This document shows, one piece after another, positions 35,058-59,743 of a stretch of 64,000 nucleotides of DNA (within the stretch, counting starts at the first letter, position 1; the number at the start of each line of letters is the position of its first letter). This stretch comes from Nocardioides nitrophenolicus (GTDB lineage: Bacteria > Actinomycetota > Actinomycetes > Propionibacteriales > Nocardioidaceae), in the NCBI RefSeq assembly GCF_016907515.1, contig NZ_JAFBBY010000001.1:620001-684000 (forward strand), written 5' to 3'. Under the pieces are notes generated by a model. The model searched no databases and was not told the origin of the DNA. It saw only the letters and a list, made by a program, of their open reading frames with translations. A program made the position numbers and the translations under genes.

Positions 35058-35121
35058 GGGTCGCAGGTCCCGAGGCTCGGGACCTGCGACCCTGTGCCTC
35101 GCCGCCGTGATGGCGCAGGCT
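35058..35121 (+). promoter_or_regulatory. DosR-like promoter with two boxes, for the first PNPOx-like gene
   Basis: Boxes GGGTCGCAGGTCCC (35058-35071) and GGGACCTGCGACCC (35079-35092) form a perfect 15-bp inverted repeat and lie 21 bp apart. The -10 hexamer CAGGCT (35116-35121) is exactly 23 nt after the proximal box. The gene starts at 35155. Confidence 0.75.
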
Positions 35122-35154
35122 GAGGTCGTGCCCCCCGCAACGAGAGGAACCGGC

Positions 35155-35574
35155 ATGGACGCCTACGAGGACCTGCAGCAGGCGACGCTGCACGACATCC
35201 CCCGCTCCGAGTGCCTGCAGCTGCTCGGCCTGGCCCGCGTCGGCCGCATCGTCTACGCCGACGACCAGGGGCCGGTCGCGCTGCCGGTCAACTTCCGGAT
35301 GGACGGCGAGACCGTCCTGTTCCGGGTCTCCCCCGCCAGCGAGATGTGCCTGCGTCTCAACGACGCCGAGGTCTCCTTCCAGGTCGACCGCCTCGACGAC
35401 TTCCACCAGACGGGCTGGAGCGTGCTGGTGCGTGGGCGGTCGTCGTACGTCGAGAGCGCGGACCTGCCCGCCCTAGAGTCGACCCGTCCGCTGCCGTGGG
35501 CGCGCGGCTTCCGGCCGGTGTACGTCCGGGTCAGTCCGACACGGATCAGCGGCAGGCGGCTGGTCGATGACTGA
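35155..35574 (+). CDS. PNPOx-like flavin-binding split-barrel protein
   Basis: The 139-residue protein has the pyridoxamine-5'-phosphate-oxidase-like fold as in F420/FMN-binding small proteins (LLGLARVGRIVYADDQGPVALPVNFRMDG, then FQVDRLDDFHQTGWSVLVRGRSS). Homologues occur in the M. tuberculosis DosR regulon, but their reaction is unknown. The ATG follows GAGAGGAACC. Two DosR-like boxes lie upstream, so it is probably induced by hypoxia. Two paralogues occur at 41.4-41.8 and 57.5-57.9 kb. Confidence 0.85.
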   Translation: MDAYEDLQQATLHDIPRSECLQLLGLARVGRIVYADDQGPVALPVNFRMDGETVLFRVSPASEMCLRLNDAEVSFQVDRLDDFHQTGWSVLVRGRSSYVESADLPALESTRPLPWARGFRPVYVRVSPTRISGRRLVDD

Positions 35575-35684
35575 CGCGGACGGCATGGCCGACCTCAACG
35601 AGACCACGACCCCGACCGGGCGCATCGACGGCCGGATGCCCAGCCCTCCCCAGGTCACCCCACGGCCAACGGTCACCCGGGGTC

Positions 35685-35727
35685 GTGCCCTTTGGCCCTG
35701 TCGGCCCACCCGTGGCCGGCGCAGGCT
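35685..35727 (+). promoter_or_regulatory. DosR-like promoter of universal stress protein gene
   Basis: Box GTGCCCTTTGGCCC (35685-35698), 23-nt gap, -10 CAGGCT (35722-35727), then 6 nt to the ATG, so the mRNA is predicted leaderless. Confidence 0.75.
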
Positions 35728-35733
35728 GGGCCC

Positions 35734-57921: not shown

Positions 57922-58556
57922 ATCGCGGCCTGCGTACGGCTGGACATGCCGAGCTTCGCCAGCAGCGACGACACGTAGTTCTTGACGGTCTTCTCGGCCA
58001 GGTGCAGGTCGCGGGCGATCTGCCGGTTGGTCAGCCCCTGGCCGATCAGGTCGAGGATGCGTCCCTCCTGGTCCGTCAGCGACGCGAGCTCCTTGTTGAC
58101 CGGTGGCCCGGAGCGGATCCGGTCGAGCACCTGGGCGGTGACCGAGGGGTCGAGCGTCGACTGCCCGGCCGCCACCCGCCGCACGTTGTCGAGCAGGTCG
58201 CTGCCGCGCACCTGCTTGAGCACGTAGCCGGCGGCGCCGGCCATGATCGCGGAGAAGAGCGCGTCGTCGTCGTCGTACGACGTCAGGATGAGCGCCTTGA
58301 TCGAGGGGTCCTGCGAGCGCACGTCGCGGCAGACGTCGATGCCGGAGCCGTCGGGCAGGCGTCCGTCGAGGATCGCCACGTCGGGCCGCAGCGCGGGAAT
58401 CCGGCGGGTCGCCTCGGCGGCCGAGTCGGACTCCCCCACGACGACGATGTCGCCCTCGCTCTCGAGCAGGTCGCGGATGCCGCGCCGGATCATCTCGTGG
58501 TCGTCGAGCAGGTAGACCCGGATCTGGTCGGCCGGGCGGGCATCGTCGTCGCTCAC
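57888..58556 (-). CDS. devR: DevR/DosR-like response regulator
   Basis: The 222-residue protein is an NarL/LuxR-class regulator: receiver with DD pocket, phospho-acceptor Asp64 (AILDGRLPDGSGID) and Lys in VLKQ, then a helix-turn-helix (TDQEGRILDLIGQGLTNRQIA, then LAEKTVKNYVSSLLAKLGM) nearly identical to that of M. tuberculosis DosR, whose residues read GGGAC-type boxes. GTG at 58556 is chosen over GTG 58565 because -10 TAACGT (58569-58564) overlaps the latter and lies 7 nt from the former (leaderless). It is the probable master regulator of the boxes described in this window and may be autoregulated. Confidence 0.93.
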   Translation of the reverse strand: MSDDDARPADQIRVYLLDDHEMIRRGIRDLLESEGDIVVVGESDSAAEATRRIPALRPDVAILDGRLPDGSGIDVCRDVRSQDPSIKALILTSYDDDDALFSAIMAGAAGYVLKQVRGSDLLDNVRRVAAGQSTLDPSVTAQVLDRIRSGPPVNKELASLTDQEGRILDLIGQGLTNRQIARDLHLAEKTVKNYVSSLLAKLGMSSRTQAAIYAVKNPPRPR

Positions 58557-58563
58557 CCCACCC

Positions 58564-58658
58564 ACGTTAGTCCCGTTCGGCGCCCGCCGGGGCGGGACCG
58601 CGCACCTTCGAGCTCAGGACCTTGTGCCCTGCCCTGTGCGTCGCGCGTGCGCCAGCGT
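58564..58658. promoter_or_regulatory. Divergent DosR-like promoter of devR and nitroreductase
   Basis: Box AGGACCTTGTGCCC (58616-58629), 23 nt, -10 CAGCGT (58653-58658) rightward. A second site CGGGACCGCGCACC (58593-58606) lies 23 bp to the left, and leftward 23 nt separate it from -10 TAACGT (58569-58564) of devR. The inner site can serve both genes. Confidence 0.7.
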
Positions 58659-58691
58659 GGAGGCTCATCGAGGACGAGGGGGATCTCAGCC

Positions 58692-59678
58692 ATGGCCAAC
58701 CGACTCAGGACTCGCTCGGAGACCGCGCCCGGAGCGGTGGTCGAGCGGCTGGTCTCCCTGGCCTGCCTCGCACCGAGCGTCCACAACACCCAGCCGTGGC
58801 GGTGGCGGCTCGACGGCGGCGTCCTGGAGCTGTCCGCCGACCTCCGCCGCCGGCTGCCCGCCGAGGACCCGCTCGGGCGCAATCTCACGCTCAGCTGCGG
58901 CGCCGCGCTGCACCACCTGCAGTTCGCCGCCCGTGCCCTCGGCTGGGAGACGAGCGTCGAACGGCTCCCGCTCGGGGCTCCGGACACCCTCCTCGCCCGG
59001 GTCGTGGTGTCGCGCACCATCCGGCACGCCGTCGCGCGCGGCGACATCGACCTGCTGCGCTCCCGGTGCACCGACCGGCGCCGCTTCACGGCCTGGCCGG
59101 TGCCGGCCGACCGGCTCGACGAGCTGTCCGCCCGGGCCGCGCTGTGGGGGGCCCGGGCGGAGCCCGTGACGAGCGACGCAGCGCGGTTCCGGCTCGAGCT
59201 GCTCGCCAACCGCGCCATCAGCTGCCTCGAGGTCGAAGGGCGGCGGCTGCTCGAGCAGGACCGCTGGATCGACCGGGACGGTCCCGACGGCATCCCGCTA
59301 GAGCTGCTCCCCGATGCTCCCGACCCGCTGCACGCGCGGTCCCGGTTCCGGCCCGGCGTGCTCGAGGACACCCGACTCGTGATCCACGGCGGCGAGCGAG
59401 TGATCGCCCTCGGCGGCGACCGGGACGACGTCGGGAGCTGGCTGCGCACCGGCGAGGCGATGAGCGACCTGTGGCTGGAGGCCACCCGCTCCGGCATGTC
59501 GGTGGTCCCGATGAGCCAGCCGATCGAGGTCGAGAGCACCCGTCACGAGATCGCCCACACCGTGCTCGGCGACCGCTTCGAGCCGCACCTGCTGCTCCGG
59601 GTCGGCTGGCAGGCGATCGGTCGCCGCGAGCTCCCCCGCACGCCCCGCCGGCCCCTGGCCGACGTCCTCGACCAGTGA
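58692..59678 (+). CDS. Acg/Rv3131-like nitroreductase-family protein
   Basis: The 328-residue protein is an FMN-fold nitroreductase of the Acg group: LACLAPSVHNTQPWRWRL near residue 20 and SGMSVVPMSQPIEV near 275. Acg-type members in the M. tuberculosis DosR regulon (Rv2032, Rv3131) may not reduce nitro compounds but store FMN or contribute to survival. ATG at 58692 follows a purine-rich stretch. It is driven by a DosR-like promoter shared with devR. Confidence 0.9.
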   Translation: MANRLRTRSETAPGAVVERLVSLACLAPSVHNTQPWRWRLDGGVLELSADLRRRLPAEDPLGRNLTLSCGAALHHLQFAARALGWETSVERLPLGAPDTLLARVVVSRTIRHAVARGDIDLLRSRCTDRRRFTAWPVPADRLDELSARAALWGARAEPVTSDAARFRLELLANRAISCLEVEGRRLLEQDRWIDRDGPDGIPLELLPDAPDPLHARSRFRPGVLEDTRLVIHGGERVIALGGDRDDVGSWLRTGEAMSDLWLEATRSGMSVVPMSQPIEVESTRHEIAHTVLGDRFEPHLLLRVGWQAIGRRELPRTPRRPLADVLDQ

Positions 59679-59743
59679 GGCCGAAAGTCCCATCGGTGTG
59701 GGCAGTCCGGCCGTGGGCCGGCCCGGTCGTGGCTTCCTAGCGT
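59678..59743 (+). promoter_or_regulatory. DosR-like promoter of the cyd operon
   Basis: Distal box AGGCCGAAAGTCCC (59678-59691), a weaker proximal site GGCAGTCCGGCCGT (59701-59714) 23 bp on, then 23 nt to -10 TAGCGT (59738-59743). Leader to cydA about 60 nt. Confidence 0.65.

Follow-up and report, generated by a model that had tools for sequence, protein, structure and literature searches.

Clustered box-and-hexamer promoters point to a DevR/DosR-type regulon in a gene island of Nocardioides nitrophenolicus

The window analysed here, bases 620001-684000 (64,000 nucleotides) of the single-contig 5.815-Mb genome of Nocardioides nitrophenolicus, has a GC content of 73.6% and holds an island of genes around devR and devS, homologues of the regulator and the haem kinase of the DevR/DosR hypoxia system of Mycobacterium tuberculosis. 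Gene calls come from a codon model, and gene names from matches to Pfam and NCBIfam. Besides the two regulatory genes, the island encodes pyruvate phosphate dikinase (PPDK) with an acyl-CoA synthetase, the arginine deiminase pathway (arcABC), cytochrome bd (cyd), universal stress proteins, a nitroreductase-like protein and several Pyridox_ox_2 proteins. The same design recurs at twelve promoters, eleven of them in the window and one just beyond its end: a 14-bp box, centred near -42.5 and covering the -35 region, ends 23-24 nt before a -10 hexamer of the form xAxxxT, and a second box usually lies 21-23 bp, about two helical turns, further upstream. On sequence grounds we consider it very probable that a DevR/DosR-type regulon of Nocardioides species, or most of one, is gathered in this island of about 30 kb behind class II promoters. 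The architecture, its clustering and its conservation at several targets can be read from the DNA of this and related genomes; hypoxic, devR-dependent induction is what they would predict.

The devR product matched M. tuberculosis DevR (3c3w) at E 2e-66 over residues 12-216, with LAEKTVKNYVS conserved, and was nearest to that of Nocardioides daeguensis (96%) among 80 named comparison loci, which surround the DevR genes of other actinobacteria and include many from Nocardioides. The GAF domain of DevS matched DosT (2vzw, E 2e-50) and wild-type DevS (E 1e-45). Compared with the DosT and DevS structures, the His before PPM (HHPPM) and the Tyr of LYLT are conserved; the position of the Glu of wild-type DevS is Gly here, as in DosT, while two further DevS structure entries carry Gly and Ala there. 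The roles of the haem-pocket residues His149, Tyr171 and Glu87 were taken from the available part of PMC4082495, and its residue numbers were matched to the deposited chains by our own reading. DevS is probably an oxygen sensor of the DosT kind. These domain and structure matches bear out an earlier sequence-only reading of the stretch, which had placed homologues of DevR and DevS inside the island. Features that mark a DevR/DosR-type regulon were found together: an orthologous regulator with conserved receiver and DNA-binding helix, an apparent cognate haem-GAF kinase with the His and Tyr of the haem pocket, a palindromic box over the -35 region at a fixed distance, what by its position would be the second box about two turns upstream, and core targets (universal stress and nitroreductase-type genes). 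The ATPase, CBS and nitroreductase genes of the island are presumably the counterparts of M. tuberculosis CtpF, Hrp1 and Acg.

All ten box/-10 pairs listed by the sequence-only reading were found in the window, and every hexamer fits xAxxxT (for minus-strand sites, the second coordinate in that list is the 5' end of the hexamer); with P11 and P12 (Table 1) the promoters number twelve, which upholds the claim of at least ten. The spacing, given there as 23 nt with 24 nt in two cases, is 23 nt in nine of the ten pairs and 24 nt in one as listed (45155); the 59701 box becomes a second such case only if taken in the register in which it scores, one base earlier at 59700. The ten hexamers are CAGGCT and TAGCGT (three each), GACGAT, GAGGCT, CAGGAT and CAGCGT, and the first base is other than T in nine of the twelve promoters. 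Second boxes had been named at 35058, 45518, 48345, 58593 and 59678. All five exist, the fourth being weak and better placed at 58594 (pair 58594/58616 below 8 bits), and such boxes are commoner than had been stated: nine of the twelve promoters reach at least 8 bits as a pair (P2 weaker at 10.5 bits, P11 at 22.6 bits), those of P9 and P12 were recognised by eye only (the P12 pair is likewise under 8 bits), and none was seen at P3. In the window, eight pairs of boxes 21-24 bp apart score at least 15.6 bits; seven of them belong to listed promoters and the other lies at 28230 (the best eight being P1, the 28230 site, P4, P7, P10, P5, P8 and P6), against two such pairs in total from five control offset sets.

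Table 1. Promoters and genes of the island. Coordinates are those of the window unless marked as genome positions; the spacing runs from the proximal box to the -10 hexamer.
Feature	Strand	Distal box	Proximal box	Spacing (nt)	-10 hexamer	Genes and annotation
Candidate	+	28230-28266 (boxes 28230/28253, 23 bp apart)				upstream of ORF 28326-28904
P1	+	35058-35071	35079-35092	23	CAGGCT 35116-35121	35155-35574 (Pyridox_ox_2)
P2	+	35663-35676 (weak)	35685-35698	23	CAGGCT 35722-35727	leaderless universal stress gene 35734-36588, then DUF1918 gene 36631-36855
P3	+		36874-36887	23	CAGGCT 36911-36916	short ORF from 36943
P4	-	38742-38755	38720-38733	23	TAGCGT 38691-38696	beta-CASP metallo-beta-lactamase-fold nuclease 37219-38646
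P5	-	45178-45191	45155-45168	24	GACGAT 45125-45130	PPDK, GTG at 45118 to 42392; CBS/BON 41832-42395; Pyridox_ox_2 41392-41835; acyl-CoA synthetase/GNAT 38756-41395
P6	+	45518-45531	45541-45554 (weak)	23	TAGCGT 45578-45583	leaderless DUF1003 gene 45590-46030
P7	-	48345-48358	48322-48335	23	GAGGCT 48293-48298	universal stress gene 47340-48269
P8	-	54156-54169	54134-54147	23	CAGGAT 54105-54110	arcA 52852-54081; arcB 51845-52846; arcC 50896-51843; cation P-type ATPase 48266-50899
DcuC-family carrier	+					54234-55778; PF03606; divergent from arcA
devS	-					55791-57368; haem-GAF histidine kinase, DevS/DosT type; GAF, HisKA_3, HATPase_c
P12	+	57392-57405	57414-57427 (weak)	23	GAGGAT 57451-57456	Pyridox_ox_2 gene 57487-57921
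devR	-					57888-58556; LuxR-family response regulator; Response_reg and GerE domains
P9	+	58594-58607 (weak)	58616-58629	23	CAGCGT 58653-58658	Acg-family nitroreductase-like gene 58692-59678
P10	+	59678-59691	59700-59713 (weak)	24 (23 in the earlier register)	TAGCGT 59738-59743	cydA 59812-61251; cydB 61273-62298; cydD-type ABC gene from 62295 beyond window end
P11		genome 685575-685640 (locus L111, 1575-1640), just beyond the window				universal stress gene, ATG (L111:1647) at predicted +1

A position matrix was built from 24 seed sites out of 46 loci, all outside the window's family; the seeds had been picked with a spacing of 23-25 nt, and the matrix scans of the window, the relatives and the arcA loci presuppose that geometry. 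At 14 bits or more the matrix gave nine sites in the 25-kb island, two in the remaining 39 kb of the window and eleven in 400 kb elsewhere, with 3, 2, 2 and 0 sites in the island at four control spacings. Eight of the nine island sites are those of the sequence-only reading and the ninth is 35058 in reverse orientation; 45541 and 59701, with their weak proximal boxes, are missed at this threshold. A profile was made from 35 promoters of other actinobacteria, none from the window, chosen by score among 72 hits with 23-nt spacing out of 173 hits; 19 of the 35 came from loci that had been kept apart because their title or likely kinship assigned them to the Nocardioidaceae or Propionibacteriales, and the N. 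daeguensis arcA site was excluded. The whole-genome profile search, in which 150 of 24219 first-look candidates were scored, gave 74 hits up to E 10. Its seven best hits, P3 (the top-scoring promoter of the genome, E 2e-7), P1, P2, P8, P4, P5 and P9, reach to E 0.004 and all lie in the island, which makes up 0.4% of the genome; the eighth (E 0.03) lies outside. The chance of seven random hits all falling in 24.7 kb is about 2.5e-17.

The spacing histogram and the survey of distal boxes examined offsets that were not presupposed, the sites of the survey being themselves matrix-derived. Among 1204 boxes in the 80 loci (at least 8 of 9 key bases), NAGSNT followed 26 times at 23 nt, 18 times at 24 nt and 14 times at 25 nt, and again 19 times at 45 nt and 12 times at 46 nt, against 1-10 times at each of the other distances from 5 to 49; eighteen 20-kb stretches elsewhere in the N. 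nitrophenolicus genome (189 boxes) gave no spacing peak. In the DNA flanking 100 promoters from relatives, second boxes had a mean core score of -5.2 bits at offset 22 and of -7.6 bits at 23, the other offsets from 15 to 59 averaging -11.8 to -16.7 bits, and a second box of at least 6 bits stood at 22-23 bp in about one fifth of the sites. With the predicted +1 set 7 nt beyond the end of the hexamer, a start codon falls on it at P2, P5 (GTG 45118), P6 and P11, as is kept at P5 and P11 in N. daeguensis and in a second close relative, genome G006. The -10 assignment gains from this a line of support that does not depend on the boxes.

N. daeguensis keeps the order acyl-CoA synthetase, PPDK, stress gene, ATPase, arcCBA, carrier, devS, devR, nitroreductase and cyd, with sites above 13.5 bits upstream of PPDK, the stress gene and arcA. 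The P5 box and GTG position are conserved in both relatives, as is P7, which is located within the 3' end of the ATPase gene, and layouts like those of P6 and P12 can be read in both. No ArcA was found in G006 at E 1e-100, nor were the carrier and the ATPase in the 60 kb examined; sites persist there before PPDK and the stress gene and the distal box persists before cydA, the nitroreductase box (the P9 counterpart) being weak. Before its stress gene, G006 encodes an ATPase-like tail, GVAKAVRGTKVP (vs GVAKRLRGTKVP in the window), that holds both boxes, from which we infer that this genome lost the arc cassette yet kept the embedded promoter. In N. agariphilus (locus L032), sites at 13979 and 16509 precede the beta-CASP (counterpart at 14150) and acyl-CoA synthetase genes.

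For the arc and cyd promoters, conservation was surveyed in wider samples; the counts include the window's own locus. ArcA hits at E 1e-100 occurred in 33 of 196 genomes of the order, and 30 arcA loci were sampled, one partial locus (L147) being dropped. A promoter site above the 5% shuffle level was found in 7 of 10 loci with an ArcA identity of at least 72% and in 0 of 19 below 60% (Fisher p 8e-5; 6 of 9 without the window), the split having been set post hoc in a list that is empty between 60% and 72%; the remaining three close loci have box-like sequences at a similar place, below the level. At cydA, 19 of 30 loci (18 of 29 without the window) have a box that is followed after 45-47 nt by a [CGT]AG-type hexamer, a criterion that was loosened after a first look had given 13 of 30 by eye. 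Under the identical criterion, control spacings of 35-37, 40-42, 50-52 and 55-57 nt gave 0, 1, 0 and 0 of 30, and shuffled upstream DNA a mean of 0.31 and a maximum of 2. The earlier claim of targets beyond the mycobacterial regulon would hold for cyd and arc, as apparently new targets for this switch; PPDK was already known as one, from the Streptomyces coelicolor work discussed below.

Several observations weigh against a DevR regulon of this kind. Taken alone, the box shows no significant enrichment in the window: with three mismatches or fewer to the consensus there are 35 matches against a shuffled mean of 26.87, 7 of 100 shuffles reaching 35, and the genome-wide excess of GGGACNNNNGNCCC is mild (59+62 vs 38+57 for the reversed pattern); the box by itself was therefore rejected as evidence. 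Boxes equally common elsewhere would have counted against the sequence-only reading; the box plus its geometry, unlike the box alone, is enriched in the island. Control spacings sometimes score high at strong boxes (22.3 at 36874 with 17 nt). P6 (45541), P7 (48322) and P10 (59701) are absent from the 74 genome profile hits, a P1-type box was not seen in the stretch of upstream DNA inspected for the counterparts in N. daeguensis and G006, and the profile search of G006 gave a single site at E 0.01, which does not lie in the island, although G006 does have weaker sites. As to a possible autoregulation of devR, in three genomes TANCGT lies 7 nt upstream of the devR GTG, the nearest box being 24, 22 and 18 nt away by a count made by eye, a spacing that is not conserved. 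The cydA layout is missing from 11 of the 30 loci, although 10 of these 11 genomes have a DevR-like gene; DevR-type control of cyd is accordingly not universal. Finally, the genome encodes a second DevR-like protein (genome 1367560-1368180), 52% identical to DevR and with a similar helix, LAEKTVKNHVT.

The cyd promoter leaves most room for another explanation, namely that the DevR regulon is real and the cyd box belongs to a different palindrome-binding regulator. The proximal cyd box is weak, and this promoter was missed by matrix and profile. In the available part of PMC7739888, M. smegmatis cydA was induced in a devR mutant as in the wild type (data not shown there) and is placed outside the DevR regulon, and PrrAB affects cydA, and also dosR, in the same species (PMC6898941, available part). 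The distance of 45-47 nt found in 19 of 30 loci is, however, that of the distal boxes at the relatives' other DevR promoters, the cyd distal box reads GGGACCAAGGTCCC in several loci, and in genome G004, one of those without the cydA layout, a 26.7-bit site precedes a nitroreductase gene that leads into cydA. We regard a foreign regulator at cyd as improbable.

Somewhat less probable still is that the second DevR-like regulator is the main reader of the boxes, or shares them with DevR, and that the signal may not be oxygen. This protein keeps LAEKTVKN in its DNA-binding helix, yet the boxes cluster around the island devR and stay together with DevR in other genomes, whereas the 20 kb around the second gene held no site above 13.9 bits and, among the pairs listed, no 21-24 bp pair above 11.0 bits. 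That a careful reader merely picked out boxes and hexamers expected by chance in DNA so rich in GC, where the box alone is not enriched, is hardly credible, given that the top seven genome profile hits in the island refute chance for seven of the ten promoters (the other three resting on conservation), that the peaks in other genomes are specific in spacing, and that control offsets gave few pairs and the cydA control spacings none or one.

A DevR/DosR-type regulon agrees in many respects with described systems; the papers compared were available in part. With the M. tuberculosis DevRS/DosRST system the island shares a DevR-family regulator with the conserved helix and a DosT-like haem-GAF kinase, a proximal site over -35 with a further site upstream (PMC5360333), and universal stress and nitroreductase genes (PMC5069765). 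One M. tuberculosis DosR site overlaps -35 at a distance of 34 bp to a mapped start, which the authors call canonical; they liken the arrangement to class II CRP promoters. The narK2 -10 region, gccAGGGTTagcgca, contains CAGGGT (PMC5360333). The M. tuberculosis-type regulon differs in that cyd and arc carry the DevR-type promoter in Nocardioides, M. smegmatis cydA being reported outside the regulon (PMC7739888). The M. smegmatis cydAB operon is the same operon, induced at low oxygen, but under Crp and PrrAB (PMC7739888, PMC6898941) instead of the layout found here. No publication on a DevR regulon in Nocardioides was found, and none on DevR/DosR control of arginine deiminase was recognised, in a search that covered few subscription journals.

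In S. coelicolor OsdKR, sites likewise cluster around the regulator gene, with predicted OsdR sites at PPDK, nitroreductase, universal stress and pyridoxamine-oxidase-type genes, one of them reading CGGGACCTTCGGCCCT, and in gel shifts OsdR bound the DNA between a stress gene and PPDK (PMC5069765); PPDK is thus not a new target. Table 1 of that paper lists neither cyd nor arc nor a beta-CASP nuclease, and the words 'cyd', 'arginine', 'cytochrome' and 'lactamase' are missing from its main text. The OsdKR consensus is AGGGCCGATCGGCCCT, against the GGGACCTTCGGCCC type of the Nocardioides island, and nar genes are among the OsdKR targets (PMC5069765). Membership in the OsdKR class was rejected, as the island boxes are mostly of the GGGACC type and no nar gene was called there. 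The Nocardioides island would work like OsdKR but belong in another class.

A mechanism consistent with the promoter design can be sketched. Loss of oxygen from the DevS haem would lead the kinase to phosphorylate DevR; DevR~P would occupy both boxes cooperatively, along the same side of the helix, and would act by class II activation, recruiting sigma-A RNA polymerase to -10 elements most of which (9/12) lack the first T. The output would be oxygen scavenging by cytochrome bd, ATP from arginine through arcABC, and PPDK acting with acyl-CoA synthetase, together with universal stress proteins and with small proteins of the nitroreductase-like and flavin types. A strong distal and a weak proximal box may tune the threshold of cyd. 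A testable grammar of DevR promoters outside mycobacteria follows, with a box, 23-25 nt and a -10, and a second box 22-23 bp out, which predicts start sites to the base, four of them leaderless. More tentatively, and with rather less than even confidence, Nocardioides DevR may have become a general switch that turns the cell from aerobic respiration towards oxygen scavenging and the fermentation of arginine, in a modular island where each cassette has its own DevR promoter and cyd its own oxygen threshold. Some promoters are hidden in the last codons of the preceding gene (the ATPase gene and the cyd ABC gene, each before a stress gene; P11 lies inside a reading frame that ends at L111:1660 and, by frame count, continues the cydD-type gene), and a cassette such as arcABC-ATPase could then be gained or lost while its neighbours keep their control. 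Cytochrome bd and arginine deiminase would join what this oxygen sensor may control, and with cytochrome bd under other regulators in M. smegmatis, a takeover by DevR in one lineage would be a clean case of rewiring.

The regulon had been described as complete, but two promoters, P11 and P12, had been missed, and the box pair at 28230 is a further candidate; no xAxxxT hexamer was seen at 23-25 nt from its boxes, and the ORF behind it is membrane-protein-like and had no Pfam or NCBIfam match. The 57392 box was also considered as a class II site for devS and rejected because on that strand it ends 10 nt before TAGCGT; the opposite gene at 57487 fits. Within 55791-57921, devS is set apart from devR by the divergent Pyridox_ox_2 gene; devS and devR both look leaderless (TAGCGT then GTG, and TAACGT then GTG), with box distances that misfit class II activation. 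In G004 (L230:13612-14730) the devS match has a gap from residue 200 to residue 312, which might mean that the part behind the haem-GAF domain is shorter or has diverged.

The N- and C-terminal parts of the P3 ORF (36943-37183) lie in different frames, and neither gave a convincing relative among the comparison loci, which might reflect a broken gene, a misread sequence or two small genes. For the beta-CASP nuclease the top NCBIfam model was type VII CRISPR Cas14 (MBL/beta-CASP), at 336.6 far under the cut-off of 800, and for the carrier beside arcA it was YfcC, also under its cut-off; the carrier is possibly an arginine/ornithine antiporter, and none of the promoters is assigned to its strand ahead of it. 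Eleven profile-hit loci of the genome were inspected, two of which (655025 and 685562) belong to the island. Of the other nine, those at 4409123 and 4755662 were judged to lie upstream of genes on the right strand, but with hexamers TCGGAT and TAGTCC. At genome 5402650, a lone box, GGGACCAAAGTCCC, with GAGTGT at 23 nt before the gene at 5402784 is a possible distant member of the regulon; a hairpin-like repeat adjoins this isolated box.

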